Both the position numbers and the translations under genes were made by a program. From the NCBI RefSeq assembly GCF_009847015.1, contig NZ_WVEM01000007.1:217341-281340 (forward strand): a stretch of 64,000 nucleotides of DNA, in the 5' to 3' direction. This DNA comes from Sunxiuqinia indica. GTDB taxonomy: Bacteria > Bacteroidota > Bacteroidia > Bacteroidales > Prolixibacteraceae. The notes beneath the pieces were generated by a model. That model saw only the letters and a list, made by a program, of their open reading frames with translations. It was not told the DNA's origin and ran no database searches. This document shows positions 23,930 through 49,234 of the stretch, piece by piece; within the stretch, counting starts at the first letter, position 1, and every line of letters starts with the position of its first letter.

Positions 23930-23943
23930 TGTAAACGTTTTCA
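23930..23943. promoter_or_regulatory. LacI-type operator upstream of the LacI-family gene
   Basis: TGTAAACGTTTTCA, one mismatch from a perfect 14-bp palindrome, 132 bp before the regulator start. It suggests autoregulation. Confidence 0.72.
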
Positions 23944-24075: not shown

Positions 24076-25071
24076 ATGGGGAGCCTAAACGATGTTGCAA
24101 AAAAGGCTGGGGTTTCAATTGCTACTGTATCCCGGGTTATTAATAATGGATCGAATGTAAATGAAGTTACTCGAGCAAGAGTATTAAACGCAATTAAGGA
24201 GCTTCGGTATCAGCCCAGTCGCGTTGCTAAAAGACTCCGATCAAAGAGTGTGTCAAGCAACCTAATTGGAGTACTTATCCCTGATATTCAAAACCCCTTT
24301 TATGTTGATGTGCTTCGTGGTATCGAAGATGTTACCTACGAAAATAACTATGCACTGATCATGTGTAACTTTCAACAGGATGAGAAGAAAGAAAAGTTGT
24401 ACCTGGATATTTTGCAATCTGAATCGATTGATGGATTGATTGCGGCACCAGCCCATGAAAAAGATGCTAAGGTAATCAGTTTAGTGAAAGAAGGATTGCC
24501 AATTGTTTGTTTCGACCGCGGACTTCAGGGAGTTGATGTTGATGTGGTGTTGGTGAATAATCGCGAGGGAGCTTTTAAAGCGGTAGATTATTTGGCGAAG
24601 GCCGGATATAAGCGTATTGCTGCTATATCTGGTTTGGAGCACTTGCCTTCTAGTCAATTGCGCGACAAGGGTTATCGTGAGGCGTTGGAAGAAAACGGAC
24701 TTTCATTTGATCCAAAATTGATTAGGCATGGAGACTCGAAACACGAAAGTGCGGTGCGTCTTTGCGACGAGTTATTGAGCTCCGAAAATCCTCCAGACGC
24801 TATATTCACAGGGAATAACCTGATTACTCTTGGTGCCTTGGAAACCATTCATAAACGGAAACTGAAGATCCCTGAAGATATTGCGATTGTTGGTTTTGAT
24901 GATATGTATTGGTCAATATCGTTAAACCCGCCTTTAACTGCTGTTTATCAGCCTGCCTATGAAATAGGCAGACGATGTGCCGAGCTGTTGATTCAACGTA
25001 TCAAAGATCCTCAACGTCCTTCTATCCAAATGATTTTGAATACACAATTAATGATTCGAAGTTCTTGCTGA
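24076..25071 (+). CDS. LacI-family transcriptional regulator
   Basis: A 331-residue LacI/GalR protein. The N-terminal helix-turn-helix (SLNDVAKKAGVSIATVSRVINNG) and hinge (RYQPSRVAKRLRSK) cover residues 1-60, followed by a periplasmic-binding-protein-like effector domain (IGVLIPDIQNPFYVDVLRGIE; FTGNNLITLGALETI; VGFDDMYWS). It should bind the TGTAAACGTTTACA-type sites found upstream of itself, the GH2 gene and the divergent GH28 and Fe-ADH operons, and release them when a sugar-derived effector binds. The effector is unknown. It sits in the middle of the locus. Confidence 0.93.
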   Translation: MGSLNDVAKKAGVSIATVSRVINNGSNVNEVTRARVLNAIKELRYQPSRVAKRLRSKSVSSNLIGVLIPDIQNPFYVDVLRGIEDVTYENNYALIMCNFQQDEKKEKLYLDILQSESIDGLIAAPAHEKDAKVISLVKEGLPIVCFDRGLQGVDVDVVLVNNREGAFKAVDYLAKAGYKRIAAISGLEHLPSSQLRDKGYREALEENGLSFDPKLIRHGDSKHESAVRLCDELLSSENPPDAIFTGNNLITLGALETIHKRKLKIPEDIAIVGFDDMYWSISLNPPLTAVYQPAYEIGRRCAELLIQRIKDPQRPSIQMILNTQLMIRSSC

Positions 25072-32669: not shown

Positions 32670-32683
32670 TGAAAACGATTACA
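32670..32683. promoter_or_regulatory. LacI-type operator for the GH28 unit
   Basis: TGAAAACGATTACA, two mismatches from TGTAAACGTTTACA. It is directly upstream of the -33 box of the minus-strand promoter. The rest of the 32552-33263 gap holds A+T-rich sequence and the second operator at 33102. Confidence 0.65.
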
Positions 32684-33101
32684 CATTTATTGATGCTGTG
32701 TGTATTGATTTTTACAAAGTCGCGGCTGGTTGTTGTTGGCGAGGTGATGTTAATATAATATCCTAAAGCTTATTTTTAGTTTAGTTGAATTGCTGTCTGG
32801 GATGTGGCTAATGTTTTTATAATGAGTATTATATATGAGCGTTTGTGCTGGTTTTATTGAAGGGGAAATAAACGCGTTTTGAATAGTATTCTTAACTGAA
32901 AATTTTTGAAAGATATGTATCCTTATGGTGAACTCACAGGTGAGATCTGACAATTTGTTCAGGATTGATTTAATTATTACTAATTAATCGTTGAAATTTA
33001 GATGTGTTCTTAACATCCAGTGTTTGAGATGCATGTGTCGAGCTTGCTATGCTTGTCAATAGTTGGATTTGCATAAAATTAAAAAAAGGTATAAATTGCG
33101 C

Positions 33102-33115
33102 TGTAAACGTTTACA
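33102..33115. promoter_or_regulatory. Perfect LacI-type operator for the 17-kb operon
   Basis: TGTAAACGTTTACA, a perfect 14-bp palindrome, 149 bp before the Fe-alcohol dehydrogenase start. It is the best of the four copies in the window and defines the consensus. Confidence 0.8.
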
Positions 33116-33263
33116 TAATGGGATTGCAAGCTTTTTTAACTGGTGCTATTTCAGGGGTTTGACGCTGTGGACGTTGCTAACTCGTGATTTTTTTTAAGGG
33201 TTAATAATTGAATAGAGGCGCTAATGGTAGGTGTGCCTATTCATCGCCGAACATAAATTAAAA

Positions 33264-34409
33264 ATGAATAGAATTTTACTTCAACAACCGTCAAGCATTG
33301 TGTTTGGCGAAGATAGTCTTGGAAAGTTTACGGAAGACTATTTAAATATGAAACATAAATCGTTATACCTGTTGACAATTAGTCCGGTAGTGCCCTTGTT
33401 GGGCGATTTATTAAAGACTTTTGAAAAAGAAGGAATCCGGGTTCAAATCAACACCGGAATAGAAGGAGAGCCTTCATTTCGTGATTTTGAAAAGGTTCTG
33501 TTAGAAGCTCGAAACTTTGGCGCCGATAGCGTGGTTGGAATTGGAGGTGGAAGTGTTTTGGATGTCGCAAAGTTTTTAGCAGCAATGCTGAAAAATGACC
33601 AAAATATATCAGACGTTATAGGAATAGGCTTGCTCAAGGAGCGAAAAACTTATTTGGCCTGTTTGCCAACCACCAGTGGTACTGGAAGCGAAGTTTCTCC
33701 AAACGCGATATTTCTTGATGAAAAAGATGGTGGCAAAAAAGGCGTAATCAGTCCGTTCCTTGTGCCCGATGGCGCATATATCGATCCAGCCTTAACAGTT
33801 GGAGTTCCGCCGGCTGTTACTGCAGCAACCGGTATCGATGCGTTGACACACTGTTTAGAGGCATACGTTAATCGTTTTGCTCATCCAATGGTTGATTTGT
33901 GGGCATTGGAAGGAATCCGGTTAATCAGTCAAAATTTGGAGAGCGCTTGTAAAGACGGTAACGATATAGACGCTCGCGCGGCAGTTGCTTTAGGAAGTGT
34001 ATATGGCGGAATGTGCCTGGGGCCGGTTAACACGGCAGCAGTGCATGCGTTGGCGTATCCGTTGGGAAGCATCTACGACGTTCCGCACGGGTTGTCAAAT
34101 GCACTGATGTTGCCTTATGTGATGGAGTACAACATGCCTGAGGGCAACGAACGTTTGGCCGGAGTAGCAAAAGCTTTGGGCGTTACTCAGTCCGGAGCTG
34201 ACTCGGAACTGGCTCAGTCCGGAGTGTTAAAGATTAAAGAATTGATTGCTGCCTGCGGTTTGCCAGGTCGGCTATCCGAAATTAACATCAAAAAGGAAGA
34301 CATTAAAAAGATGGCAGATGCAGCTATTTTGGTTCAACGTCTTTTAAATAATAATGTAAAGGAACTAACAATAGAGGACATTGTTTCGATCTACAAAAAA
34401 GCATATTAA
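33264..34409 (+). CDS. Iron-containing alcohol dehydrogenase
   Basis: 381 residues from ATG 33264; a GTG at 33231 is in frame but adds an unlikely leader. A group III Fe-ADH with the NAD-binding GIGGGSVLDVAKF motif (about residues 91-103) and PTTSGTGSEVSPNA. Metal ligands are in DPALTVGVP, GIDALTHCLEA, VHALAYPLGS and DVPHGLSNALMLP. It oxidises an alcohol or reduces an aldehyde using NAD(P). As first gene of an operon with an aldolase, a PdxA-like dehydrogenase and a DUF1537 kinase, it probably acts on an aldehyde made by the aldolase or on the incoming sugar; this is inference. Confidence 0.9.
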   Translation: MNRILLQQPSSIVFGEDSLGKFTEDYLNMKHKSLYLLTISPVVPLLGDLLKTFEKEGIRVQINTGIEGEPSFRDFEKVLLEARNFGADSVVGIGGGSVLDVAKFLAAMLKNDQNISDVIGIGLLKERKTYLACLPTTSGTGSEVSPNAIFLDEKDGGKKGVISPFLVPDGAYIDPALTVGVPPAVTAATGIDALTHCLEAYVNRFAHPMVDLWALEGIRLISQNLESACKDGNDIDARAAVALGSVYGGMCLGPVNTAAVHALAYPLGSIYDVPHGLSNALMLPYVMEYNMPEGNERLAGVAKALGVTQSGADSELAQSGVLKIKELIAACGLPGRLSEINIKKEDIKKMADAAILVQRLLNNNVKELTIEDIVSIYKKAY

Positions 34410-34412
34410 CGA

Positions 34413-35336
34413 ATGAAACCTGGAAAAAAATACCATGGAGTAATTGTGCCAATGATTACTCCATTTAAAGAAGATAATACAATTGATGGAGAGTCGGTTG
34501 GGCGCATTGTTGGGCTACTCAAGAGTGCTGGTGTGTATCCATTTATTTTAGGAACTACCGGAGAGGCTCCGTCTATTTCGGATGAGCAGAAAGACCGAAT
34601 GGTTGCTGAGACTGTAAAATACGCTGGTGCAGGTTGTCTGGTGTATGCGGGTATTTCATCCAATTGCTTTGAAGAGTCGGTAACAATGGCTCGGAAATAC
34701 CATGGAATGGGAGTTGATGTTGTTGTTGCAACGCTTCCGGCTTACTATCCGATGAACAATCAGCAGATGGTGAATTATTTCACGGATTTAGCTGATCAGG
34801 TACCTTGTCCTTTGATTATTTATAACATGCCGGCAACGGTCAAAATTTCAATCCCGTTAGAGGTTCTTGATCAATTAAGCAAGCATCCTAACATTGTTGG
34901 AACAAAGGATTCGGAGCGAGATCTGGAACGCTTAGATCGTTCTATTGAATTGTGGAAAGATCGACCGGATTTTGTCCACCTTTTAGGTTGGGCTGCTCAA
35001 TCGGCTTACGCTTTAAAAAAAGGATCCGATGGCATTGTTCCAAGCACCGGCAATTTTGTGCCGGAACTTTATCAAGATCTATACCTGTCGAACTTGGAAG
35101 GCAAGTTTGAACGAGCGGACGAACTGCAACGGCAGACAAACGATTTGTCATTGCTTTATCAAAAGGACCGAATTTTAAGCCAATCAATTCCAGCCTTAAA
35201 GTCAATTCTGGCTGTAATGGGAATTTGCGGAACTCAGGTTTTGCCACCAATGTATCGTTTACACGATGAAACAGTATTTCAGAATAATATAAAAGAAGAA
35301 TTACAAAAATTAGAAATTATTCAGCTCAATGAGTAA
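34413..35336 (+). CDS. DHDPS/NAL-family class I aldolase or dehydratase
   Basis: A 307-residue TIM barrel with the family motifs GTTGEAPSIS (about residues 48-57), IIYNMPATV with the active-site Tyr (about 137), and IVGTKDSERD with the Schiff-base Lys (about 166). Members split or dehydrate 2-keto acids: dihydrodipicolinate, N-acetylneuraminate, 2-keto-3-deoxy sugar acids. Its place with a PdxA-like enzyme and DUF1537 kinase argues for sugar-acid breakdown, not lysine synthesis. The gap to the preceding gene is 3 bp and its end overlaps pdxA by 8 bp. Confidence 0.88.
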   Translation: MKPGKKYHGVIVPMITPFKEDNTIDGESVGRIVGLLKSAGVYPFILGTTGEAPSISDEQKDRMVAETVKYAGAGCLVYAGISSNCFEESVTMARKYHGMGVDVVVATLPAYYPMNNQQMVNYFTDLADQVPCPLIIYNMPATVKISIPLEVLDQLSKHPNIVGTKDSERDLERLDRSIELWKDRPDFVHLLGWAAQSAYALKKGSDGIVPSTGNFVPELYQDLYLSNLEGKFERADELQRQTNDLSLLYQKDRILSQSIPALKSILAVMGICGTQVLPPMYRLHDETVFQNNIKEELQKLEIIQLNE

Positions 35337-36366
35337 CTTAAATAATCTACCCATTTTGGCAATTACAATGGGCGACCCGGCAGGAGTTGGTCCGGAGATT
35401 GCTGTTAAGACCTTTGCGAATCAGCAAACCTATGAAATTTGCAAACCTTTGTTGGTTGGCAATACCAGTATTTTGAAGAAGGCGATCAATTTGTTACAAT
35501 CCGAACTTCAGATTAATAGTGTTGACGATGTTGATCAAGCTCGCTTTCTGCATGGAACGATCGATATTTTTAATTTAGACGTTGAAGATCCTGATGCGAT
35601 AGAATTTGGAGTTGTTTCTGCTGTGGCGGGTGATCTGGCTTTTCGCACTGTTAAGCAGGCCATTGACCTGGCACTTGCCAAAAAGGTTGATGGCACGGTT
35701 ACCGGACCAATCCACAAAGGAGCGATTCATGCGGCGGGTCATCACTTTTCGGGACACACCGAAATTTATGCACACTACACAAACACTTCTAAATACGCCA
35801 TGTTGCTGGCCGAAGAAGACCTTCGGGTGATTCATGTGAGCACCCACGTTTCGTTGCGTCAGGCCTGCGATAATGTAAAAAAAGACCGCGTTGTTGAGGT
35901 GATTCACCTGCTAAATGACAGCCTGAAAAAGCTCGGAATTGAAAATCCGAAAATTGGAGTAGCAGGATTAAATCCTCATTCGAGCGACGACGGATTATTT
36001 GGATACGAAGAAAAGGAAGAGATTGAGCCAGCCTTGAAAGAAGTTCAAGCCGAAGGAATTGATGCCGAAGGACCTGTGCCGCCGGATACCCTTTTTGCTT
36101 TGGCTACGGGAGGAAAATTCGATGGTTGTGTGGCTATGTATCATGATCAGGGACACATCCCCTTTAAAGTTGTTGGTTTTAATTGGGATAAGGAAAAAAA
36201 GGTCATGAAAAGTGTGAAAGGAGTGAATATTACGTTGGGACTTCCAATCATCCGTACATCGGTAGATCATGGAACTGCCTTTGAAATAGCCGGAAAAGGA
36301 GTCGCTAGTCCGGATGCACTTTTATTAGCCATACAATATGCCACAAGACTACATCAGTCGAACTAA
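35329..36366 (+). CDS. PdxA-like 4-phospho-sugar-acid dehydrogenase
   Basis: A 345-residue PdxA-family protein: AITMGDPAGVGPEIAVK at the start, GTVTGPIHKGAIHAAGHHFSGHTE, HVSTHVSL and AMYHDQGHIPFK with the three metal-binding His, then GLPIIRTSVDHGTAFEIAGKG. Classic PdxA serves vitamin B6 synthesis. The PdxA2 branch, found next to DUF1537 kinases, oxidises and decarboxylates 4-phospho-threonate or erythronate to dihydroxyacetone phosphate. Here the adjacent DUF1537 kinase supports the second role. It overlaps the aldolase gene by 8 bp. Confidence 0.88.
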   Translation: MSNLNNLPILAITMGDPAGVGPEIAVKTFANQQTYEICKPLLVGNTSILKKAINLLQSELQINSVDDVDQARFLHGTIDIFNLDVEDPDAIEFGVVSAVAGDLAFRTVKQAIDLALAKKVDGTVTGPIHKGAIHAAGHHFSGHTEIYAHYTNTSKYAMLLAEEDLRVIHVSTHVSLRQACDNVKKDRVVEVIHLLNDSLKKLGIENPKIGVAGLNPHSSDDGLFGYEEKEEIEPALKEVQAEGIDAEGPVPPDTLFALATGGKFDGCVAMYHDQGHIPFKVVGFNWDKEKKVMKSVKGVNITLGLPIIRTSVDHGTAFEIAGKGVASPDALLLAIQYATRLHQSN

Positions 36367-36377
36367 TAAATATAAAG

Positions 36378-37547
36378 ATGATAGCTGTTATAGCAGATGA
36401 TTTTACAGGAGCCGCAGAGATTGGGGGAATTGGGTTAAGGCACGGATTGAGGGTAATGATTGAAACGAGTGTGGAGAAGGTTGACGATATTGATTTATTA
36501 ATCATCGCTACAAACACCAGATCATTAAATGAGGAAGAAGCATCCAAAGAGATTGATAAAATTGTAAAGAAGCTGTTGATGCTTGAACCGACTTTCATTT
36601 TTAAGAAGTTAGATTCAGTACTGCGGGGGAATGTTAACGCAGAACTACATGCTCAAATGAAAGCTTCTGGCAAGGATCTTGCGATTGTTGTTGCTGGAAA
36701 CCCTTATTTCAAACGAATTATTAAAAACGGAATTTACTATATCGAAGATATTCCTTTAGCTGAAACCTCGTTCGGGAATGATCCGGAGTATTCAATCCAT
36801 TCATCATCAGTTGTTGATTTGTTGAGTAGTACTTATTTAGTTGCGAAGTCGGCAAGGCCAACGGACGAATTACCGAAAAGCGGATTAATAATTGGCGACA
36901 TAACAAATGATGTTGAAATGAAGAAATGGAGTCATCGTCTTGACAATAATATGGTGGTTGCAGGAGGAGCAGGCTTTTTTGATTCGCTCTTGTGTGGTAT
37001 TTTTGGCGTTGAAGAAACCAACCACACAGGTAGGGATTATACGTTTGGGAGACGGTCACTCTTTGTGTTCGGAAGTGCTTACCCAAAACCCCCGGATATG
37101 GATGGGCTTACATTAAACAATAATATCTCGGTTATTAATATGCCTGATGAAATTTTCAATAATGCCAATTACGATTCCCAATGTATGCAGACCTGGATTG
37201 CAAACGTTGTTGATGCGTTGAAAACAAATAAAAATGTTTTCGTATCCATAAAGCATAAGTTTTGTGATGAGGAAGGATTATCCGTTCGTCTCACAAAAAT
37301 GATTGGTGAATTAGTCGCAGGAGTTATCAAATCAGTTGAGCTGAATGATCTTTTTATTGAAGGCGGAGCAACTGCTTCAGCGGTTTTCAACTATTTAGAA
37401 ATTAATAGATTGGTGCCTTTTGGGGAGTTGGAACCCGGAATTATCCAAATGAATCCTGTTAAATATCCAAATTTAAAAGTAACCACCAAGCCGGGAAGTT
37501 ATAAATGGCCAAAAAATAAAATTCACTTTATAAAAACTAACAACTAA
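36378..37547 (+). CDS. DUF1537 four-carbon acid sugar kinase
   Basis: A 389-residue DUF1537 family kinase: N-terminal IAVIADDFTGAAEIGGIGLRHG, FKKLDSVLRGNVNAEL (about residues 75-90) and a C-terminal nucleotide-binding part (FIEGGATASAVFNYL, GELEPGIIQMNP). Known members phosphorylate threonate, erythronate, 3-oxo-tetronates or 3-oxo-isoapionate. It lies 11 bp after the PdxA-like gene, whose substrate it should make. The precise acid is not readable from sequence. Confidence 0.9.
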   Translation: MIAVIADDFTGAAEIGGIGLRHGLRVMIETSVEKVDDIDLLIIATNTRSLNEEEASKEIDKIVKKLLMLEPTFIFKKLDSVLRGNVNAELHAQMKASGKDLAIVVAGNPYFKRIIKNGIYYIEDIPLAETSFGNDPEYSIHSSSVVDLLSSTYLVAKSARPTDELPKSGLIIGDITNDVEMKKWSHRLDNNMVVAGGAGFFDSLLCGIFGVEETNHTGRDYTFGRRSLFVFGSAYPKPPDMDGLTLNNNISVINMPDEIFNNANYDSQCMQTWIANVVDALKTNKNVFVSIKHKFCDEEGLSVRLTKMIGELVAGVIKSVELNDLFIEGGATASAVFNYLEINRLVPFGELEPGIIQMNPVKYPNLKVTTKPGSYKWPKNKIHFIKTNN

Positions 37548-37550
37548 TCA

Positions 37551-39122
37551 ATGCAACCTACTACTTCTATTCACCTAATCGACTATATCATCATTGTACT
37601 AACTCTTGTTGTTTCAGTTGGAGTTGGAGTTCGTTTTGCGAGACAGCAAAAAAGCACTGGCAAGTATTTTACGGGGGGAGGAACACTGCCTTCATGGGCC
37701 ATTGGGATGTCAATCCTCGCCACTTTAATCAGTAGCATCACCTTTTTAGCCTATCCGGGTGAAGGATACGGTTCAAACTGGATCAGGCTGGTGCAAGGAT
37801 TAATGGTGCCCATTGTATTAGTTTTCGCCATTGGCTTTATTGTGCCTTTATTCCGGCATGTAATACGCTTGAGCGCCTACGAGTATTTTGAACGACGCTT
37901 TGGCTTTTTTGCACGGCTATACAGCTCCCTGGGGTTTATCTTGACACACTTTGCAAAAATGGGAACTGTTTTTTATATCATTTCACTTGCATTGGGAAAG
38001 ATGATTGGGATGGATACGGTTACGATTATTTGGATAATCGGAATTGCAGTGATTATATTGACCATGCTTGGCGGAATTGAAGCAGTTATCTGGTTGGATG
38101 TGATCCAGGGATTTATGCTAATTTTTGGAGGAATTGTGACGCTGATTATTTTGCTGTTCAGTACTGACGGAGGGCCGTCTGAAATTTGGTCGGTAGCGAT
38201 GGAAAACGGACGAATTGGTTTTGGCCCATTTGACTGGGATTTTGTCAACCTTACATTTTGGGTAATGGCACTAAACGGTATTTTTTATGCCATTCAGAAA
38301 TATGGAACTGATCAAACGATCGTGCAACGGTATTTAACGGCAAAGTCAGACAAGGAAGCGATCAAGGCGTCATTAATCGGTGTTTTGCTCAGTGTGCCGG
38401 TCTGGGCGTTATTCATGTTCATCGGAACGGCTCTGTTTTCTTATTATCAAATATCGCAAGATGTTTTGCCGGAGGGAATTAAAAATGATGCGGTCTTTCC
38501 AATTTTCATTGTATCTAAGTTGCCGGTTGGTGTAGTTGGTTTAATTATATCGGCATTAATTGCAGCGGCAGTTTCCAGCTTAGACTCAGATTTAAATTGT
38601 TTATCTGCAATTGTTTTAGAGGATTACTACCTTCGGTTTCGTCCAAAGAGTTCTGAAAAAGAACAGGTATTGTTGAGTAAAATCTTTATTGTTCTTGCAG
38701 GTCTTGGTGCGATTGGAGTAGCCTTGTTTTACGTTCATGCGGGCGGCAAAGGAGTGCTGGGTATAATTTTCACTTTGTATGCGATATTCTCAGGAGGAAT
38801 TGCAGGAATGTTTCTACTCGGAATTTTTTCAAAAATACCCAACAAGCAAGGGCTTTACTTTGGAATTGGAGCCAGTGTATTATTTACGGCCTACGCTTTG
38901 TTAACATCTACGCCAATCGGAGCTGCCAGTGGAAAAGAGTCTTTGTTAATTGACTTGGGCGCTTTCAATTTCACCCAACACAAATACATGATTGGGGTTT
39001 ATAGTCATGTGGTATTGTTTGTGGTTGCTTTTATTGCAAGTTTCTTCTTTAAGTCGAAAGAAATTGATGACCGCTTAACGTACAAAGGGTGGTTGAAATA
39101 CAAACGAACAAATGCGGCTTAA
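37551..39122 (+). CDS. Sodium/solute symporter (SSS family)
   Basis: A 523-residue inner-membrane protein with about 13 hydrophobic helices. Typical SSS segments are present: GVGVRFARQQKSTGKYFTGGGTLPSWAIGMSILATLISSITFLAYPG near the N-terminus and LIISALIAAAVSSLDSDLNCLSAIVLEDYY (about residues 325-355). It lies 3 bp after the kinase gene and probably imports the monosaccharide or sugar acid released by the secreted enzymes encoded next. Confidence 0.92.
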   Translation: MQPTTSIHLIDYIIIVLTLVVSVGVGVRFARQQKSTGKYFTGGGTLPSWAIGMSILATLISSITFLAYPGEGYGSNWIRLVQGLMVPIVLVFAIGFIVPLFRHVIRLSAYEYFERRFGFFARLYSSLGFILTHFAKMGTVFYIISLALGKMIGMDTVTIIWIIGIAVIILTMLGGIEAVIWLDVIQGFMLIFGGIVTLIILLFSTDGGPSEIWSVAMENGRIGFGPFDWDFVNLTFWVMALNGIFYAIQKYGTDQTIVQRYLTAKSDKEAIKASLIGVLLSVPVWALFMFIGTALFSYYQISQDVLPEGIKNDAVFPIFIVSKLPVGVVGLIISALIAAAVSSLDSDLNCLSAIVLEDYYLRFRPKSSEKEQVLLSKIFIVLAGLGAIGVALFYVHAGGKGVLGIIFTLYAIFSGGIAGMFLLGIFSKIPNKQGLYFGIGASVLFTAYALLTSTPIGAASGKESLLIDLGAFNFTQHKYMIGVYSHVVLFVVAFIASFFFKSKEIDDRLTYKGWLKYKRTNAA

Positions 39123-39201: not shown

Positions 39202-42200
39202 ATGAAAATGTATATCAAATCAGAAAAAGCAATTTCATTAATTTTCATAATATTATTGGTCTTGAGTAGTAGTCCGTTTTATGGATTCGCTCAAGAGCCA
39301 GATTTGAAGCCTGTATCGGTTTCTAAAGATGGTCGTTTGTTATACGGAAAAGACGAAGACGGCAATCGGGTTCCCGATTTTAGCTATGCTGGATATAAAG
39401 CTTCAGAATCAGAAATCCCTTTCGTCGAGCCGAAAGTTGTTGTTGCTCCGGTGGAAGGAGACGCGACGCTCACCATTCAAAAAGCATTGAATTATGTCGC
39501 ATCGTTACCTTTAAATGAGAATGGCTTTCGAGGAGCTGTTTTACTACAGAAAGGTACGTTTAAAGTCAATGGACGGCTGGTGATTAAGGCTTCAGGTGTT
39601 GTGCTGCGAGGAAGTGGTTTTGGCGACAATGGAACTACATTGATAGCTGGAGGAAAAGACCGGCAGACCTTTATTCGGATTCTTGGGAAAAGTGATCAGT
39701 TTTTTACTGATACAACGCGTATTTCTAATTCATACGTGCCTGTAAATGCGATGAAGTTTGTGGTTGAAAATACTGAAGCTTACAAAGTAGGCGACCCGGT
39801 TATTGTTCATCGTCTATCGTCTCAAAAGTGGATTGAAAGATTAAGTATGGTTGAATTTGGTGGAGAAGAAACGGGGTGGATTGGCTGGAAACCCGGAAAC
39901 CGCGATATCTACTGGGATCGTACGATTACCGCAATCGAAGGAGATACCATTTTCGTCGATGCTCCGCTAACAACTGCATTAGATACGACTTGGGGAGCTA
40001 GTGGAATCATAAAATATAACTGGAAAGGACGAATCAACAACATTGGGATTGAAAATCTAAATTTGGAGTCGGCTTTTGATGAAACGAATTTGAAAGATGA
40101 AAACCATTGTTGGTCAGCTATAACTATTGAGAATGCTGAAAATGTATGGGTACGTCAATTAACTTTTAAGCATTTTGCCGGGTCGGCAGTTGCTGTTTAT
40201 GAAACCGCTAAAAAAGTAACGGTTCAGGATTGTGTTTCAACAGATCCGGTTTCTGAAATCGGCGGTCAGCGGCGATATACCTTTTTCACAATGGGGCAAC
40301 AAACCTTGTTTCAACGCTTGTATGCCGAATATGGTTATCATGATTTTGCCCTTGGTTTTTGTGCTGCCGGGCCAAACGTTTTTGTGCAATGTGAATCGCA
40401 TTTGCCCTACGAATACAGCGGGACAATTGACAGTTGGGCATCCGGTGTTTTATTCGATATTGTGAATGTTGATGGACATGCCATTTCCTTTAAAAATCAG
40501 ATGCTCAACCGCCAGGGAGCTGGCTGGACTGCTGCCAATTCCATGCTGTGGCAATGCTCTGCTGCGCTGATCGAAAACTACGCCCCACCTACAGCGATGA
40601 ACTGGAGTTACGGTGCCTGGAGTCAATTTTCGGGCAATGGATATTGGGCTGAAGAAAATAACCATGTCACACCCCGAAGTTTGTTTTATGCACAGCTAGC
40701 TGATCGACTGGATAAGAAAACCGAGGAGTTTGCTGACCAGGTAATGCCCTTCGACGATAACTCAACAAGTAGCCCTACTGCCGAACAAGCTCAGGAATTA
40801 ACGGAACAAGCTTACACACCGGCGCTACGTTTGGAAGATTGGATTATGCAAGCGGACGACCGCGATCCGATTTCACTGGAAGCAGCAACTGCCATAAAAG
40901 CAAGCGAATTAAAAGACAAGAAGAAAATTGCAACAGAAGTTCTTCATCCAATTACTGTTGAAAACGGGAAATTGGTTAAAGATGATTTGGTGTTAACCGG
41001 CATGCGCTTTACGGTGCCTTGGTGGAGGGGAGTGGCTCGTCCCTATGCTACGAAGAAGGCAACTCCTGCTGTTACACGTTATGTCCCGGGCCGAAATGGT
41101 CACGGATATACCGATAACCTGAATGAGGTGATTGACTGGATGGATGAATACAATATGGTTGGTCTTGAACACAATTATGGCTTGTGGTACGATCGTCGCC
41201 GCGACGATCATCAGCGAGTTCGAAGGATGGATGGTCAGGTTTGGGCTCCATTTTACCAGCAGCCTTTTGCCCGAAGCGGACAAGGAACTGCCTGGGACGG
41301 ATTGAGTAAATACGACTTAACCAAATATGATGATTGGTACTGGAATCGACTTGCTGATTTTGCCGACTTGGCTGACAAAAACGGCAAGCTGTTGGTGCAT
41401 CACAACTATTTTCAGCATAACATTTTAGAAGCCGGAGCTCACTGGGCTGACAGTCCGTGGCGACCTGCGAACAATATTAACAACACCGGTTTTCCAGAGC
41501 CGGTGCCTTATGCGGGAGATAAACGGATTTATATGGCCAAACAGTTTTATGATGAAAGCCATCCGGTACGCCGGAAGTTGCATCAGGCCTATATTCGTCA
41601 ATGTCTGAATAATTTTGCTGATAATTCAAACGTCCTTCAGCTGATTAGTGCTGAATATACAGGTCCGCTTCATTTTACCGAATTCTGGTTAGAAACGATT
41701 GACAATTGGCAAAAGGAAACCGGGGAAGATAAATTGATAGGATTGAGTACCACCAAGGATGTTCAGGATTCTATTTTGGCGAATAAAAAATACGCAGATC
41801 TGATCGATGTAATTGACATTCGCTATTGGAGCTATCGCGAAGACGGAACGTTGTATGCGCCACTGAGCGCTCAGCAGTTGGCGCCGCGTCAGCATGCACG
41901 ACAGGTAAAACCCGGCAAACGCTCCTTCAGCTCTGTTTATCGTTCGGTGTTCGAATATACGTCTCAATACCCTGAAAAGGCCGTTGTTTTTTCTGAAGGC
42001 CGATACAATGTATATGGTTGGGCTGCTTTTATGGCCGGAGGTTCGCTTGTGGTTCTCCCCGAAAATTTGCCGGCCGGGTTTTTATCCGATGCCATTTCGA
42101 TGCGGCCCGTTAAGCCGGATGCTAACCCTGAAGAAGAGTGCAGCTTGGAAAGTGACAATGCACTTATCATTTATTCGCAGAACAAATCAGAACTTTCGAT

Positions 42201-42360
42201 TGACCTGACTGGAAGGAAAGGACGATATGTCGTTAAATTTATTCAACCTCCGGATGGGACTTTACTCAATAAAGAGACTATAATAAAGGGAGGCGAAAAA
42301 CAAGCGATTAAACTGCCTCAAAAATCATCACTCATAACTTGGATTAAAAAACAACAATAA
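39202..42360 (+). CDS. Beta-helix/DUF6298 fusion protein, secreted
   Basis: A 1052-residue protein with signal sequence SLIFIILLVLSSSPFYGFAQ. The first half (about residues 60-500) is a right-handed beta-helix of pectate-lyase-superfamily type (IQKALNYVASLP, LRGSGFGDNGTTLIAGG, ENAENVWVRQLTFKHFAGSAVAV, VTVQDCVS). The second half (about 595-1050) resembles DUF6298, a glycosidase-like barrel (FTVPWWRGVARPYATKKATP, MVGLEHNYGLWYDRRRDDHQRVRR, LISAEYTGPLHFTEFW). The activity of such fusions is not known to me. The position before a GH140-like gene suggests action on a pectin side chain. Confidence 0.75.
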   Translation: MKMYIKSEKAISLIFIILLVLSSSPFYGFAQEPDLKPVSVSKDGRLLYGKDEDGNRVPDFSYAGYKASESEIPFVEPKVVVAPVEGDATLTIQKALNYVASLPLNENGFRGAVLLQKGTFKVNGRLVIKASGVVLRGSGFGDNGTTLIAGGKDRQTFIRILGKSDQFFTDTTRISNSYVPVNAMKFVVENTEAYKVGDPVIVHRLSSQKWIERLSMVEFGGEETGWIGWKPGNRDIYWDRTITAIEGDTIFVDAPLTTALDTTWGASGIIKYNWKGRINNIGIENLNLESAFDETNLKDENHCWSAITIENAENVWVRQLTFKHFAGSAVAVYETAKKVTVQDCVSTDPVSEIGGQRRYTFFTMGQQTLFQRLYAEYGYHDFALGFCAAGPNVFVQCESHLPYEYSGTIDSWASGVLFDIVNVDGHAISFKNQMLNRQGAGWTAANSMLWQCSAALIENYAPPTAMNWSYGAWSQFSGNGYWAEENNHVTPRSLFYAQLADRLDKKTEEFADQVMPFDDNSTSSPTAEQAQELTEQAYTPALRLEDWIMQADDRDPISLEAATAIKASELKDKKKIATEVLHPITVENGKLVKDDLVLTGMRFTVPWWRGVARPYATKKATPAVTRYVPGRNGHGYTDNLNEVIDWMDEYNMVGLEHNYGLWYDRRRDDHQRVRRMDGQVWAPFYQQPFARSGQGTAWDGLSKYDLTKYDDWYWNRLADFADLADKNGKLLVHHNYFQHNILEAGAHWADSPWRPANNINNTGFPEPVPYAGDKRIYMAKQFYDESHPVRRKLHQAYIRQCLNNFADNSNVLQLISAEYTGPLHFTEFWLETIDNWQKETGEDKLIGLSTTKDVQDSILANKKYADLIDVIDIRYWSYREDGTLYAPLSAQQLAPRQHARQVKPGKRSFSSVYRSVFEYTSQYPEKAVVFSEGRYNVYGWAAFMAGGSLVVLPENLPAGFLSDAISMRPVKPDANPEEECSLESDNALIIYSQNKSELSIDLTGRKGRYVVKFIQPPDGTLLNKETIIKGGEKQAIKLPQKSSLITWIKKQQ

Positions 42361-42372
42361 ACCTTATAAAAT

Positions 42373-43776
42373 ATGTTACGAAATTTATTGATCATTACGA
42401 TAGCTGTATTTTTTGCTGTTGGTTGTACTTCAACCTCAAAGGAAGAAAAGAAAGAAGATACGGGGTTACCGCTTTTAAAAGTGTCTGAAAACGGACATTA
42501 TTTTGTTGAAGAGAATGGCGATCCGTTTTTTTGGTTAGGCGATACCGGTTGGCTGCTATTTTCAAAGCTTAATCGGGAAAATGCAGTGAAATATTTGGAA
42601 ATCCGCAAAGAGCAAGGATACAATGTTATTCAGGTAATGGTATTGCACAGCGTAGGAGCTGTCAATATTTATGGCGATTCAGCCTTAGTAAATGCCAATG
42701 TGGCAAAACCGGTGGTTACCGAAGGAAATGCATTCGACGACTCGCTGCAATATGATTATTGGGATCATATGGATTATGTGATTGATCAGGCTGCCGAAAA
42801 AGGATTGTACATGGCCTTGGTTCCTGTATGGGGAGGCAATGTAAAAAGTGGTTATGTATCAAGAGAAGAAGCCTCTGTTTATGGCCAGTGGATAGCCAAT
42901 CGCTACAAAGACCGCAAAAATATAATTTGGCTGAATGGTGGTGACACCATGGGGAACGATTCAACGGCTACCTGGAATAATCTGGGAAATGCGATCAATG
43001 ATACTGATCCGAATCACCTGATTACCTTTCACCCACGCGGACGGATGCAGTCATCTGATTGGTTTGCTAACGAAGCTTGGTTGGATTTTAACATGATCCA
43101 GTCCGGACACCGAAATTACGAGCAGGATGATACGGAGCGCTCTTACGGTGAAGACAATTGGCGTTACATGCAAACCGATTGGGATATGACTCCGGCTAAA
43201 CCAACCATTGATGGCGAGCCTTCTTACGAAGGAATTCCTCAGGGCTTACACGATACATTGCAACCATTTTGGAATGATGATGATGTTCGTCGATATGCAT
43301 ACTGGTCCGTATTTTCCGGAGCATTCGGCTATACTTATGGACATAGTGCTGTAATGCAGTTCTATAAGCCGACGGATAATGAACCGGCATACGGAGCCAG
43401 AGAATATTGGACCGAAGCAATTGATGCTCCGGGTGCCAAACAGATGGTTCACCTGAAAGATTTGATGCTATCGCGTTCTTATTTGGATAGAGTGCCGGAT
43501 CAAAGTTTGATAGCCGGTGAAAATGGTGAGCGGTATGATTACTTAATCGCTACTCGTGGTTCAAACTATGCCTTTATCTACACGTACACCGGAAGAAATA
43601 TTCCTGTTGATATGGAGCAGTTTAAAGCTGAAAAAGTAAAGGCAAGCTGGTTTGATCCCCGAAATGGAGAAACTACAGCCATCGGTGAGTTTGAGACCCA
43701 GGGTGTTCAGGAATTTGATGCCCCGGGTGAAAAAGAGAATGGTAACGACTGGGTGTTGATTCTTGACGAAGTATAG
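42373..43776 (+). CDS. GH140-like (DUF4038) apiosidase candidate, lipoprotein
   Basis: A 467-residue protein. The lipoprotein signal ends FAVGC (Cys about residue 18). The DUF4038 barrel begins PFFWLGDTGWLLFSKLNRENAVKYLE. Probable catalytic residues lie in IIWLNGGDTMGND (Asp about 195) and PTIDGEPSYEG (Glu about 282). These match the Asp/Glu pair and spacing of the GH140 enzyme that removes apiose-linked side chains from rhamnogalacturonan II. A short C-terminal sandwich follows. Related DUF4038 proteins may have other specificities, so apiose is a reasoned guess. Confidence 0.75.
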   Translation: MLRNLLIITIAVFFAVGCTSTSKEEKKEDTGLPLLKVSENGHYFVEENGDPFFWLGDTGWLLFSKLNRENAVKYLEIRKEQGYNVIQVMVLHSVGAVNIYGDSALVNANVAKPVVTEGNAFDDSLQYDYWDHMDYVIDQAAEKGLYMALVPVWGGNVKSGYVSREEASVYGQWIANRYKDRKNIIWLNGGDTMGNDSTATWNNLGNAINDTDPNHLITFHPRGRMQSSDWFANEAWLDFNMIQSGHRNYEQDDTERSYGEDNWRYMQTDWDMTPAKPTIDGEPSYEGIPQGLHDTLQPFWNDDDVRRYAYWSVFSGAFGYTYGHSAVMQFYKPTDNEPAYGAREYWTEAIDAPGAKQMVHLKDLMLSRSYLDRVPDQSLIAGENGERYDYLIATRGSNYAFIYTYTGRNIPVDMEQFKAEKVKASWFDPRNGETTAIGEFETQGVQEFDAPGEKENGNDWVLILDEV

Positions 43777-43835: not shown

Positions 43836-45680
43836 ATGATAAAACTGAATAAAATATTACTCGTGTCCGCCTTGTTATTAAGTGGAGTGGGAGTAGCTTC
43901 AGCTCAGGAAATCCCTCATTTTACAGGGACCGAGCTCAACAATCCTGACTATCATCATGGGCAACTGAGCCCGGCAATGGGCGTACATAACATTCAGGTG
44001 ATGCGCGCCAATCGCGAACTTCCTGAAACTGCTGATAATTTTGGATGGACCTACAACCATGCGCCTATGTTGGCGTATTGGAACGATACGTTCTTTTTAG
44101 AATATTTAAGCGATCCGGTTGGAGAGCACGTTCCACCGGGACAAACCTTTTTGGTGACTTCAGAAGATGGTTACGAATGGTCGAAGCCTGAGGTTATTTT
44201 TCCTCCGTATTCCATTCCGGACGGAACGCAAAAGGAGGGAAGTGATCAAGTGGCAAAAGATTTGCTGTCGGTGAATCATCAACGAATGGGAGTTTATGTT
44301 TCTTCTGATGATCGTTTATTTGCCATCGCCTACATTGCTATTTCTATTGATGCACACGACAGCCCGAACGATGGAAAAGGAATTGGAAGAGTTGTGCGCG
44401 AAATTCATAAAGATGGTTCCTTCGGGCCGATCTATTTCATTCGTTATAACGAAGGGTGGAGCAAAAAAAATACGGACTATCCGTTTTATACGAAGAGCAA
44501 GGATAAAGGGCTTGTTAAAGCCTGTGAAGAAATGCTATCCGATCCGCTTGTTCAACAACAGTGGAACGAAGAAGCGGATCGGGATGATCCGTTAATTCCC
44601 ATACAAAAACAGTATAAAGCTTTCTCGTACTATCACTTGCCGAATGGTAACGTGGTTGGCCTGTGGAAACATGCCCTCACTGCGGTGAGTGAAGATGAAG
44701 GAAAAACCTGGACAACGCCCACTCGTGCCCCTGGCTTTGTAAATAGCAATGCTAAGATTTGGGGACAACGTACTTCCGATGGTCGTTTTGCGACAGTATA
44801 CAATCCCTCCGATTTTCGCTGGCCTTTAGCTATTTCAGTGAGTGAGGACGGTCTCAATTATGAAAATTTACTTTTGGTGAATGGTGAAATTACAACCATG
44901 CGCTATGGTGGTAACTATAAATCTTATGGTCCGCAATATGTTCGCGGTATTCAGGAAGGTAATGGTACACCTCCTGATGGAAACCTTTGGATAACGTACA
45001 GCATTAATAAGGAAGATATCTGGGTTTCAACAATTCCAGTGCCTGTTAAATCGAAGGCTGAGAATCATGTTAATGAAGATTTTTCTGCGATGGATTCAGC
45101 ATCTGCTTTGGACAAATGGAATCTTTTTAGTCCGGTTTGGGCGCGTGTTGGTATTGAAAAAGATGCTGATGGAACATCCTGTCTGACCTTAAAAGACAAA
45201 GATGAATTTGACTACGCCAAAGCCAAGCGGTTGTTTCCGCCATCCGATTCGGTGAGCGTTGAGTTTACAATTGAAGCAGAGCAAAATGACCATGGTCTGC
45301 TGCATGTTGAATTGCAAGATGAAGAGAACACCGGAACGTTGCGCCTTGTTTTTGATAAGGATGGGATACTGAAACACAAAGCAGGCTATCGTTTGCGGAA
45401 TATTATGGAGTACGAAGCCGGTAAAAAATACACCATTCGTATTGAAGCGACCACTTGGTCTCGTTTTTACGATGTGTATGTAAATGGTGAAAAGAAAACC
45501 ACGGGCTTGAGTTTTGCACCGGTTCACGAAGTCCAAAGCATTCAGTTTCGTACTGGAGAGGTCCGCCGCTTTCCAACTGTCGATACGCCAACTGATCAAA
45601 AATTTGATGTTCCTCAAAGCGGAAAGCCTGTTGACGAAGCTGTCTTCCGCATTTATTCGTTGAAAACTGAAAAATTATAG
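43836..45680 (+). CDS. Beta-propeller enzyme candidate with C-terminal LamG-like domain, secreted
   Basis: A 614-residue protein with signal peptide LLVSALLLSGVGVASAQ. Residues about 30-410 look like a propeller: YHHGQLSPAMGVHNIQVMRANRE, GWTYNHAPMLAYWNDTFFLEYLS, LVTSEDGYEWSKPE, VSEDEGKTWTTPT. The His-rich N-terminal part recalls the GH145/PL42 families, which cleave the rhamnose-glucuronate link of arabinogalactan; I hold this only loosely. Residues about 415-614 resemble a concanavalin-like (LamG) domain (SVSVEFTIEAEQNDHGLLHVEL, YDVYVNGEKKTTGL). It lies within the 17-kb operon. Confidence 0.65.
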   Translation: MIKLNKILLVSALLLSGVGVASAQEIPHFTGTELNNPDYHHGQLSPAMGVHNIQVMRANRELPETADNFGWTYNHAPMLAYWNDTFFLEYLSDPVGEHVPPGQTFLVTSEDGYEWSKPEVIFPPYSIPDGTQKEGSDQVAKDLLSVNHQRMGVYVSSDDRLFAIAYIAISIDAHDSPNDGKGIGRVVREIHKDGSFGPIYFIRYNEGWSKKNTDYPFYTKSKDKGLVKACEEMLSDPLVQQQWNEEADRDDPLIPIQKQYKAFSYYHLPNGNVVGLWKHALTAVSEDEGKTWTTPTRAPGFVNSNAKIWGQRTSDGRFATVYNPSDFRWPLAISVSEDGLNYENLLLVNGEITTMRYGGNYKSYGPQYVRGIQEGNGTPPDGNLWITYSINKEDIWVSTIPVPVKSKAENHVNEDFSAMDSASALDKWNLFSPVWARVGIEKDADGTSCLTLKDKDEFDYAKAKRLFPPSDSVSVEFTIEAEQNDHGLLHVELQDEENTGTLRLVFDKDGILKHKAGYRLRNIMEYEAGKKYTIRIEATTWSRFYDVYVNGEKKTTGLSFAPVHEVQSIQFRTGEVRRFPTVDTPTDQKFDVPQSGKPVDEAVFRIYSLKTEKL

Positions 45681-45684
45681 TTGA

Positions 45685-47250
45685 ATGTATAAGTTGAAAA
45701 ATACAATAAAATTAACACTCATTATTGCTTTCACCTGGATGTGTTTATTGCCGGCTACGGCAAGCCAAAAAGGAAAGAGCAGTGAAAAACAGCTCCTTCA
45801 AGCTGAGGATTTTAAGCACTATGTCGATTATTTTAATCGCATGGAAGATGAAAATATTGCCGGCGCTATCCCTAATACCGAATCATGGGAATGGATGAAA
45901 GCCAATATCCCCCTGTTCGAATGTCCGCAAGCCAATTTTGAGGAAATGTATTACTACCGTTGGTGGACCCTGCGCAAGCACATCAAAGAGACTCCCAAAG
46001 GATACGTCATGACCGAGTTTCTGGTTCAACGTCCGTATGCTGATAAATACAACATGATTAGTTGTGCCTTGGGGCATCACATATACGAATCCCGCTGGTT
46101 GCGCGATCGCAAATATGTGAACGACTATGTCCATGTTTGGTTTCGGGGTAATGAAGGTGGAAAAATGAATAAGCTTCTCAAGTTCAGTAGTTGGACGGCC
46201 AATGCTCTTTACAACAAATACCTGGTTGATGGAAACAAGGAGTATTTGGTGGATATGTTGCCTGATTTACTTTCAGAATACGAAGCGTGGGAGCTTGAAA
46301 AAAAAACACCTTCTGGCCTGTTTTGGCAATACGATGTTCGCGATGGCATGGAAGAGCAAATTAGTGGTGGACGTCACGTGAAAAATAAGCGCCCAACGAT
46401 TAACAGCTACATGTATGGAAATGCAAAAGCCATTGCTAAAATTGCAGGTTTAGCCGGAAAGAAGAAAGTTGCTGAAAAATATGAAGCTAAAGCTGATACC
46501 TTACAAAAGCTGGTGAATGATAGCCTTTGGAATGCTGAGGCGAACTTCTACGAAACGGTTAACGAAAAAGGAGGTTTTGCGGAGGTGCGCGAAGAAATTG
46601 GATTCATTCCATGGTATTTCAACTTGCCAAAGGAAAAGCAGCAAAGTGCCTGGGAACAGGTAAAAAGCACTCAGGGGTTTTTAGCTCCTTTTGGGCTGAC
46701 AACTGCCGAGCGAAGTCACCCGGAGTTTCGCTCTCATGGCTGTTGCAGCTGCGAGTGGGATGGTGCCATTTGGCCATTTGCAACGTCACAAACCATGACT
46801 GCCATGGCTAACCTGATCAATAATTACGATCAGGATGTGGTGAACGATTCCATTTATTTTAGACTGATGGAGTTGTATGTTGAATCACAATATTACCGCG
46901 GTCGCCCATATATTGGAGAGTATTTGGATGAAGTAACTGGCTATTGGCTTAAAGGAGATCAGGAGCGAAGCCGCTACTACAATCATTCAACCTTTAATGA
47001 CTTAATTATTACCGGACTGGTTGGTTTGCGTCCCCGCGATGATCAGAAAATTGAAGTGAACCCCTTGATTCCCGAAGATAAATGGGATTGGTTTTCGCTC
47101 GATCAAGTTTCTTATCATGGGAAAAGTGTCAGCATCATTTGGGATAAAACGGGCGAAAAATACAAGTTAGGGAAAGGGCTTATCATTTTAGTCGATGGAA
47201 AAGAGGTTGGACGAAGTGAGCACCTCGAACACCTGGTTTGTAGTTACTAA
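45685..47250 (+). CDS. MGH1/GH63-like (alpha/alpha)6-barrel glycosidase, secreted
   Basis: A 521-residue protein with signal sequence LTLIIAFTWMCLLPATA. It has the helical-barrel pattern of MGH1/GH63/trehalase-like enzymes: FLVQRPYADKYNMISCALGHHIYESRWLRD, GLFWQYDVRDGMEEQISGG, RPTINSYMYGNAKAIAKIAGL, HGCCSCEWDGAIWPFATSQT, ending in a C-terminal sandwich. The acidic residues of DVRDGMEE and CEWDGAIWP are likely catalytic. The substrate is unknown. It starts 4 bp after the propeller gene. Confidence 0.75.
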   Translation: MYKLKNTIKLTLIIAFTWMCLLPATASQKGKSSEKQLLQAEDFKHYVDYFNRMEDENIAGAIPNTESWEWMKANIPLFECPQANFEEMYYYRWWTLRKHIKETPKGYVMTEFLVQRPYADKYNMISCALGHHIYESRWLRDRKYVNDYVHVWFRGNEGGKMNKLLKFSSWTANALYNKYLVDGNKEYLVDMLPDLLSEYEAWELEKKTPSGLFWQYDVRDGMEEQISGGRHVKNKRPTINSYMYGNAKAIAKIAGLAGKKKVAEKYEAKADTLQKLVNDSLWNAEANFYETVNEKGGFAEVREEIGFIPWYFNLPKEKQQSAWEQVKSTQGFLAPFGLTTAERSHPEFRSHGCCSCEWDGAIWPFATSQTMTAMANLINNYDQDVVNDSIYFRLMELYVESQYYRGRPYIGEYLDEVTGYWLKGDQERSRYYNHSTFNDLIITGLVGLRPRDDQKIEVNPLIPEDKWDWFSLDQVSYHGKSVSIIWDKTGEKYKLGKGLIILVDGKEVGRSEHLEHLVCSY

Positions 47251-47278
47251 CTCGCAATCAATAAAAAGAACGATACCA

Positions 47279-47956
47279 ATGAAAAAATCATTACTAATAG
47301 CTTCTGTTTTTGCAGCAGTGTCTTTCTTGTACACTCCGGCTACCGAGGCAAATTGTACCGTACACCCATCGGTCGTTAGCGATCAGTTATCCGATCAGGA
47401 ACAGAAAGCAACCGAGTGGGTGAAATCGCTAGAGTTGGCCGATAAAGCAAAAGAAGAGCGCGTAATAGACATTGTAGCCGAACATCTGACGGCAGTGAAA
47501 ACTTGGCATGATGAGCACCCCGGATCAGCGGTTCCTGCCGGAGTTAATCCAAGGACAGGGGAAAAGCTGACCGAGCTGGATCGACAAATGATTGCCGATT
47601 CAGCCATGCCCGAAAGTGTGCATGAGAATTTAATGAGCGGACTTCGTAAAGAGTTGAAAGAAGAGCAGGTTGAAGCTATTTTGGATAAATACACCGTAGG
47701 TAAGGTTGACTTCACCATGCGTGGTTACTACGCCATTGTGCCGGACCTAACCGACGAAGAAGCCGCTGTAATTTTAGGCCATTTAAAAGAGGCTCGCGAA
47801 ATGGCAGTCGATTATAAACAGATGAAAGAGATCTCTGCTATTTTCGAAATCTACAAAACGAAGTGCGAGAAATACTTAAACAGTAACGGAAGAGATTGGC
47901 ACCAGCTTTACAAGGCCTTTGTCAAAAAAATAAAAGAAGAAAAAAACAAAAAGTAG
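47279..47956 (+). CDS. DUF3826 protein, secreted
   Basis: 225 residues from ATG 47279 (an in-frame ATG at 47195 overlaps the previous gene and adds a leader before the signal peptide MKKSLLIASVFAAVSFLYTP). A mostly helical protein matching DUF3826 (EWVKSLELADKAKEERV..IVAEHL..VKTWHDEHP; VEAILDKYTVGKVDFTMRGYYAIVPDLTDEEAAVI). DUF3826 genes recur in Bacteroidota glycan loci but have no known function; a binding or assembly role is possible. Confidence 0.85.
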   Translation: MKKSLLIASVFAAVSFLYTPATEANCTVHPSVVSDQLSDQEQKATEWVKSLELADKAKEERVIDIVAEHLTAVKTWHDEHPGSAVPAGVNPRTGEKLTELDRQMIADSAMPESVHENLMSGLRKELKEEQVEAILDKYTVGKVDFTMRGYYAIVPDLTDEEAAVILGHLKEAREMAVDYKQMKEISAIFEIYKTKCEKYLNSNGRDWHQLYKAFVKKIKEEKNKK

Positions 47957-48123: not shown

Positions 48124-49227
48124 ATGAAATTATATTTCAGAAATAGTCTAATTGTGATGTTTGTTCTTGCTTGTCTTTTTTCAGTTGAGGCAAAAGCACA
48201 GGAAAATCGGTGGAAAAAAGGAATCGTAAAAGAACAGTTTATATACGAAGAAGATGTTTATCCTTCATGCCATGCCGGAACGTTGGCCGAAACGCCGCAC
48301 GGTATTGTTGCTGCTTGGTTTGGCGGCACACGCGAACGAAACCCGGATGTGACCATCCGTTTCAGTCGTTTGGTCGATGGTGAGTGGACAAAGTCGGTTG
48401 AAGTGGCCAACGGGGTGCAAAACGATACGCTGCGTTATCCAACCTGGAATCCGGTTTTGTATCAAATTCCTGATGGCGATTTGTTGTTGTTTTATAAAGT
48501 TGGGCCTAGTCCTTCCGGTTGGTGGGGCATGCTGAAGCGTTCATCGGACAACGGATTAACATGGAGCGAAGCCGAAAAACTACCTGATGGCTTTATTGGC
48601 CCGGTAAAAAATAAACCGTTGTTGTTAGATAACGGCGATTTGATCTGCGGGTCAAGTACTGAAGGAGGCCAGGGATGGCAGGTGCATTTCGAACTGACCC
48701 CTGATTTTGGTAAAACCTGGCGTAAGGTTGGACCAATTAATAGCCCGAGCACCTATCAAATTATTCAGCCCAGTGTTTTGAAACACCAAGACGGGCGTTT
48801 GTCTGTTTTATGCCGAAGTAAAAACAGCGTGTTGGTTGATTCTTATTCTTCGGACAACGGCGAAACATGGTCATTGCCGCAAGCTTCCGGACTTCCAAAT
48901 AACAACTCAGGAACCGATGCCGTTTCGTTGCAGGATGGCCGTCAACTGGCTGTTTACAACCACGTAAAAACACCCATTGGCGCTAAAAAAGGTTATCGCA
49001 CACCACTTAATGTAGCAGTTTCCGATGATGGCAAACACTGGTCTGCAGCGCTGGTATTGGAAGATTCCGAAATCAGCCAGTATTCTTATCCGGCAGTAAT
49101 TCAGTCGGCTGATGGCATGGTGCATTTTATTTACACCTGGCGTCGTGAGCGAATGAAATACGTAAAAGTTGATCCGGCAAAATTGGAATTGACTGAAATT
49201 ATCGATGAAAAGTGGCCTGAAAAATAA
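48124..49227 (+). CDS. Asp-box beta-propeller protein (sialidase-like fold), secreted
   Basis: A 367-residue protein with signal peptide NSLIVMFVLACLFSVEAKAQ. Several Asp boxes are visible (SSDNGLTW, TPDFGKTW, SSDNGETW, SDDGKHW), so a six-bladed BNR propeller is expected. The classical sialidase RIP motif is missing; instead there is CHAGTLAETPHGIVAAWFGGTRE at about residues 45-67. Automatic naming as exo-alpha-sialidase would be misleading; in a pectin locus this group probably acts on a different acidic or deoxy sugar. Confidence 0.8.
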   Translation: MKLYFRNSLIVMFVLACLFSVEAKAQENRWKKGIVKEQFIYEEDVYPSCHAGTLAETPHGIVAAWFGGTRERNPDVTIRFSRLVDGEWTKSVEVANGVQNDTLRYPTWNPVLYQIPDGDLLLFYKVGPSPSGWWGMLKRSSDNGLTWSEAEKLPDGFIGPVKNKPLLLDNGDLICGSSTEGGQGWQVHFELTPDFGKTWRKVGPINSPSTYQIIQPSVLKHQDGRLSVLCRSKNSVLVDSYSSDNGETWSLPQASGLPNNNSGTDAVSLQDGRQLAVYNHVKTPIGAKKGYRTPLNVAVSDDGKHWSAALVLEDSEISQYSYPAVIQSADGMVHFIYTWRRERMKYVKVDPAKLELTEIIDEKWPEK

Positions 49228-49234
49228 CAAGACG

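Follow-up and report, generated by a model that had tools for sequence, protein, structure and literature searches.

A set of five genes occupies positions 33264–39122 of the window, by which we mean the whole stretch of 64,000 nucleotides analyzed here from Sunxiuqinia indica (Bacteroidota; assembly GCF_009847015.1, contig NZ_WVEM01000007.1, positions 217,341 to 281,340 of the forward strand). The genes, all on the forward strand, encode an iron-dependent alcohol dehydrogenase (Fe-ADH; 33264–34409, PF00465/PF25137, with a GTG-extended open reading frame (ORF) from 33231), a Schiff-base lyase of the DHDPS/NanA superfamily (34413–35336, PF00701), a PdxA2-type dehydrogenase/decarboxylase (35329–36366, assigned by bit scores to solved PdxA2 proteins), a DUF1537 kinase of the SBD_N/NBD_C type (36378–37547; PF07005, PF17042), and a sodium:solute symporter (SSS; 37551–39122, PF00474). 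Successive genes are separated by a 3 bp gap, an 8 bp overlap, and gaps of 11 and 3 bp, as had been described in an initial annotation made from the sequence alone, and the family assignments of that annotation agree with Pfam. This set is very probably a cassette for the import and catabolism of 3-deoxy-D-lyxo-heptulosarate (Dha), a rare seven-carbon acid sugar from side chain D of the pectin rhamnogalacturonan II (RG-II), and is tied to enzymes that would free Dha from this polysaccharide.

Seven more co-directional genes follow the symporter gene and encode, in order, DUF6298, GH140-like, GH143, GH142, DUF3826, sialidase-like BNR, and esterase-like proteins. The 43836–45680 product matched PF24067 with 400 bits (cut-off 27) in a Pfam search and aligned over 590 residues (793 bits) with residues 24–610 of the solved BT1020 structure (5mqr), which span the N-terminal propeller that characterizes GH143. 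The adjacent gene (45685–47250) encodes a GH142 beta-L-arabinofuranosidase and corresponds to the C-terminal half of BT1020 (494 residues aligned with 5mqr, 760 bits). As GH143 has Dha hydrolase activity (PMC6811678), the 43836–45680 product, a GH143 by its sequence, is predicted to release Dha. GH143 and GH142 are encoded separately at 43836–47250 and are fused in Bacteroidaceae (L038, L142; about 1100 aa, in Prevotella up to 1400 aa or more). Also on the forward strand are the genes for the DUF6298 protein (39202–42360; PF19815, 784 bits), the GH140-like apiosidase that the initial annotation had already recognized in the operon (42373–43776; PF13204, PF12904), the DUF3826 protein (47195–47956; PF12875, true start probably further downstream), the sialidase-like BNR beta-propeller (48124–49227; PF13088, weak sialidase matches), and an esterase-like alpha/beta hydrolase (49205–50623; weak AXE1/GCE_fung matches) with homologues 48–57% identical in GH143 loci. 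The DUF6298 and DUF3826 families recur with GH140/GH143 at many loci and are possibly RG-II enzymes. A scan for terminators and promoters that would break the operon gave matches near the level of shuffled sequence, and the forward-strand terminator-like matches were all inside genes.

A LacI-type operator, the palindrome CTGTAAACGTTTACAT, is located upstream of the operon at 33101–33116. With up to two mismatches allowed, the core TGTAAACGTTTACA was found at five sites in the window, compared to 0.36 expected by chance. Copies with one mismatch precede a lacI-type gene (23930–23943) and the GH2/malectin gene at 17753 (17674–17687), and a weaker copy with two mismatches precedes divergent GH28-GH88-GH95 genes (32670–32683). 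The operator is conserved in relatives, where it precedes either the corresponding genes or the gene for this LacI: the perfect palindrome ATGTAAACGTTTACAT is present upstream of the corresponding Fe-ADH gene at two loci (L049, L052) and upstream of LacI in a Melioribacter locus (L071). The LacI-family regulator encoded at 24076–25071 (forward strand, PF00356), with its own operator copy at 23930, has homologues 54–77% identical beside the cassette in eight related loci and probably controls the operon as a repressor. The proposal of the initial annotation that one operator is common to the five genes and the seven enzymes downstream is supported by the conservation of the 33101–33116 site and by its higher than chance frequency.

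The cassette proteins were compared with characterized families. Based on an alignment of 65 family members, the lyase keeps K165, Y137, and the TTGE motif, has T142 in place of the arginine that marks DapA, and contains R169 and W193 at positions at least 95% conserved; R169 might be guessed to contact the distal carboxylate. The cut-offs were not reached for DapA (TIGR00674; 147 bits, cut-off 206) or for the NCBIfam NanA models (122 bits, cut-off 281, and 95 bits, cut-off 382). The AlphaFold2 model (predicted local distance difference test, pLDDT, 94.6) has the superfamily fold, with N-acetylneuraminate lyase (5c54) as the nearest structure (TM score 0.90). According to PMC6811678, Dha is an analogue of sialic acid with seven carbons. 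Because the DapA arginine is absent, the closest fold is that of a sialic acid lyase, and Dha is sialic-acid-like, Dha cleavage by this lyase is favored. The window PdxA scored 289 and 283 bits to solved PdxA2/D-threonate 4-phosphate dehydrogenase proteins versus 189 to E. coli PdxA, and 341 bits to the narrow NCBIfam model NF002891 (cut-off 583); a paralogue on contig C4 of the same genome had near-equal scores (197/191 to PdxA2 versus 183 to PdxA) and is not clearly PdxA2-like. Both Pfam domains of the kinase are above their cut-offs (SBD_N 119 bits, cut-off 25; NBD_C 37.9 bits, cut-off 28.3), and its best NCBIfam match is the D-threonate kinase NF047819, at 130 bits and in the N-terminal part only. 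D-Threonate is a documented substrate for a DUF1537 kinase (PMC10971088), and PdxA2 has been implicated in organic acid catabolism (PMC9997740). The Fe-ADH domain scores above its family cut-off, and D203, H207, H272, and H286 (numbered from the GTG ORF at 33231), each with at least 95% conservation across 58 homologues, are probable metal ligands by analogy with FucO.

From these assignments, we infer the following substrates and reactions. GH142 would remove the capping L-arabinofuranose, GH143 would free Dha, and the SSS symporter would take Dha up across the inner membrane. The lyase would split the C3–C4 bond of Dha, releasing pyruvate and 2,3-dihydroxy-4-oxobutanoate. The Fe-ADH would use NAD(P)H to reduce the latter, forming D-threonate, from which the DUF1537 kinase would generate 4-phospho-D-threonate. 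PdxA2 would then oxidize and decarboxylate this product to dihydroxyacetone phosphate (DHAP) and CO2, providing entry into glycolysis. Such a route would cost one ATP and would be redox-neutral if one coenzyme serves both dehydrogenases. The last two steps have a precedent in D-threonate catabolism by DtnK (DUF1537) and PdxA2, reported by Zhang et al. in 2016, a study referenced by PMC10971088 and PMC9997740. This enzyme pair reportedly yields DHAP and CO2. Computed atoms balance for the retro-aldol reaction of Dha to pyruvate and the four-carbon semialdehyde acid. On reduction and renumbering from the acid end, C5 (left) and C6 (right) of Dha become C2 (left) and C3 (right), the configuration of D-threonate; by the same derivation, a D-arabino or D-ribo sugar would instead give L-erythronate. 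Dha is thus proposed as the substrate because the operon contains GH143 and GH142 and because the C5/C6 configuration yields D-threonate, the substrate of DtnK/PdxA2. The initial annotation had proposed that a Schiff-base aldolase and an Fe-ADH supply a PdxA2/DUF1537 module for four-carbon acids, all within a single catabolic route, and this part is retained. Its candidate sugars (apiose, aceric acid, or an unsaturated uronate) are probably wrong, as the adjacent GH143 and GH142, which had gone unrecognized, point to Dha and another part of the genome encodes an apiose-type module.

When 84,980 species genomes were scanned, 80 loci were recovered. Within their flanks, SSS is encoded at 73 of these loci, PdxA at 65, DUF1537 at 63, Fe-ADH at 59, and GH143 at 14. 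Four more loci were added to count gene orders (n = 84). The full set of five genes is present at 56 of the 84 loci, in the order lyase-SSS-FeADH-PdxA-kinase (29 loci, mostly Prevotella/Bacteroides) or FeADH-lyase-PdxA-kinase-SSS (27 loci), and many of the incomplete sets are truncated at contig ends. Conservation, a point raised by the initial annotation, extends to several phyla. Of 79 lyase-carrying genomes, 73 had GH143 in whole-genome searches (35/40 and 38/39), whereas in a phylum sample only 17 of 296 genomes had it. In a sample of 151 Bacteroidaceae genomes, all five with the lyase were among the 19 with GH143 (p = 1.5e-4 without the centre genome; the species are related and p-values are guides only). 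GH143 adjoins the cassette in other phyla as well (L055, L074, L036). The dependency is one-way, in that the cassette nearly always implies GH143 and not the converse. Several observations weigh against assigning the cassette to Dha. GH143 marks RG-II use generally, and its co-occurrence with the cassette is by itself not specific to Dha. The lyase is absent from 14 of the 17 phylum-sample genomes that have GH143, and Dha is therefore either processed in a different way or not used in these genomes. GH143 is missing in 6 of the 79 lyase genomes and in two further genomes (G074 and G176), some of these being incomplete metagenome-assembled genomes, and five Prevotella-type loci and L055 have the set without an Fe-ADH nearby. 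Finally, neither the kinase nor the PdxA2 reaches its family cut-off, although these are the best or near-best families, and the kinase score is far under the 450-bit cut-off of NF047819.

Housekeeping roles were considered for two of the enzymes. The genome contains four DHDPS-family genes: a DapA-like gene adjoining ligA, a galactarate-type gene, a NanA-like gene, and that of the window lyase. A role of the lyase in lysine synthesis is ruled out by the separate DapA-like gene, T142, and the low TIGR00674 score, and a role of the window PdxA in vitamin B6 synthesis by the second PdxA gene on contig C4. The initial annotation had named lysine or vitamin B6 synthesis, or a gene order not conserved elsewhere, as grounds for abandoning a catabolic function; with separate DapA-like and PdxA genes and a conserved order, none of these grounds applies.

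Other substrates from pectin have to be weighed against Dha. 3-Deoxy-D-manno-octulosonate (Kdo), the other 3-deoxy-ulosonate of RG-II and likewise RG-II-specific in plants, could be cleaved by the lyase to pyruvate and D-arabinose, with the remaining genes serving another purpose. Substrate promiscuity is common among pyruvate lyases of this superfamily and the operon encodes a sialidase-like BNR protein, but a five-carbon aldose would leave the adjacent four-carbon acid kinase and PdxA2 without a role, the retained partner is the Dha hydrolase GH143, and a further NanA-like lyase is encoded in this genome next to genes for SSS, BNR, and rhamnosidase proteins, making Kdo an improbable substrate. 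That second locus (L044, contig C38), which also contains SusCD genes and a BNR protein 58% identical to that of the window, is a candidate locus for the use of Kdo or sialic acid. It is very unlikely that the lyase is instead a 2-keto-3-deoxygluconate (KDG) or galactarate-type aldolase for galacturonate and that PdxA2/DUF1537 take free threonate. The pectin context and the related aldolases of the superfamily would fit such a role, but a galactarate-type operon on C38 has its own DHDPS lyase and reductase, a KDPG-aldolase homologue is encoded on C11, and neither the tie to GH143 nor the two conserved five-gene orders would be explained. This galactarate-type operon (L139, 13330–19431) encodes a dehydratase, a DHDPS lyase, a GarR-like reductase, and a glycerate-kinase-type MOFRL/DUF4147 protein, a six-carbon analogue of the logic proposed for Dha; three operator-like sites are present near 8–11 kb on the same contig.

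Degradation of apiose, apionate, or aceric acid by the five-gene set would agree with the GH140-like apiosidase in the operon and with the DUF1537 member OiaK, which works in apionate breakdown and is encoded beside a GH143-GH140 operon in genome G286. The window kinase gave no match to OiaK, however, no RuBisCO-like gene that could correspond to OiaX was found among the Pfam matches of the operon genes, and a pyruvate lyase has no obvious role in such a route. In addition, the genome contains a separate module of an FGGY kinase, an isomerase, and a split transketolase with an ABC transporter (L144), which we take to fit an apiose route. Modules of this type adjoin the five-gene set in Prevotella, in G033, and, without the isomerase, in L055, so that both coexist; with the module adjacent in Prevotella and G033, apiose is probably not the substrate of the set, and we regard this group of sugars as extremely unlikely. 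In three Prevotella loci (L058, L103, L141), a split transketolase, a glycerol-kinase-like FGGY kinase, and a fucose-isomerase-like protein are encoded directly before the five-gene set, resembling a single RG-II rare-sugar operon, and in L103 a short-chain dehydrogenase/reductase gene takes the usual Fe-ADH position. The G286 locus (L040, 1541–4200) has a GH143-GH140-DUF6298 operon followed by homologues of OiaK and of the RuBisCO-like decarboxylase OiaX, both below cut-off, suggesting an apionate branch at an RG-II locus; OiaK/OiaX occur beside GH143 only in this genome. The set could also degrade Dha by other steps, such as oxidation before cleavage or a different role for the Fe-ADH, which is missing near the set at some loci. 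Retro-aldol cleavage followed by reduction yields exactly the known DtnK/PdxA2 substrate, however, and the Fe-ADH is present in 59 of the 80 loci with several of the others cut, leaving little likelihood for different steps.

The cassette may also have a wider distribution than land-plant RG-II. Ignavibacteria, KSB1, and Opitutales have GH143-like enzymes, in some cases accompanied by sulfatases and lacking GH142, and the combination of GH143-like genes and the lyase without GH142 in three genomes (those of L057, L071, and L073) hints at Dha outside RG-II. Possibly, though less likely than not, the cassette is a general Dha-utilization module that these bacteria use on Dha-containing algal glycans. 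At three loci (L033 in G074, L037 in G176, and L073), the lyase lacks a canonical GH143 nearby, and Fe-ADH, PdxA, and DUF1537 are also present in G074 and G176; the lyase is beside sulfatase and sialidase-like genes in L033 and a sulfatase gene in L073, perhaps for algal glycans. Elsewhere in the window, a 593 aa ORF (54937–56718) has no Pfam match at 0.001.

The proposed Dha route combines features of several known systems. Like D-threonate catabolism (DtnK/PdxA2), it has a kinase, a PdxA2-type dehydrogenase, and a transporter, but a DHDPS-family lyase and an Fe-ADH are added upstream, the set is tied to GH143/GH142, and threonate would be an intermediate rather than the imported substrate. 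With galactarate/glucarate breakdown (keto-deoxy-hexarate aldolase, GarR, and glycerate kinase) it would share the conversion of a keto-deoxy-aldarate to pyruvate and a semialdehyde acid that is reduced and then phosphorylated; the Dha route would be one carbon longer, without a dehydratase, and with Fe-ADH in place of GarR and DUF1537 and PdxA2 in place of glycerate kinase. The N-acetylneuraminate lyase route similarly pairs a Schiff-base lyase of this superfamily with SSS-type uptake of a sialic-acid-like sugar, whereas the window set has no epimerase or N-acetylmannosamine kinase, scores below the NanA cut-offs, and would give a four-carbon acid. Both catalytic modules of BT1020 from Bacteroides thetaiotaomicron (GH142 and GH143) are matched full length in the window, as two adjacent genes rather than one, linked to genes with a predicted function in intracellular Dha breakdown. 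No Dha catabolic pathway was found in the literature searched, which consisted of open-licence papers and leaves room for a description elsewhere, and the cassette probably combines known enzyme families in a new way, to use a sugar for which no described route was found. The cassette would provide a complete and stereochemically exact route from Dha to glycolysis. The cassette would give a function to genes of rumen and gut Prevotella and soil Bacteroidota that might otherwise be annotated as lysine, vitamin B6, and alcohol genes, and would serve as a genomic marker of RG-II degraders that keep the carbon of Dha. If the cassette is a general Dha module, the lyase would be a genomic marker of Dha cycling.

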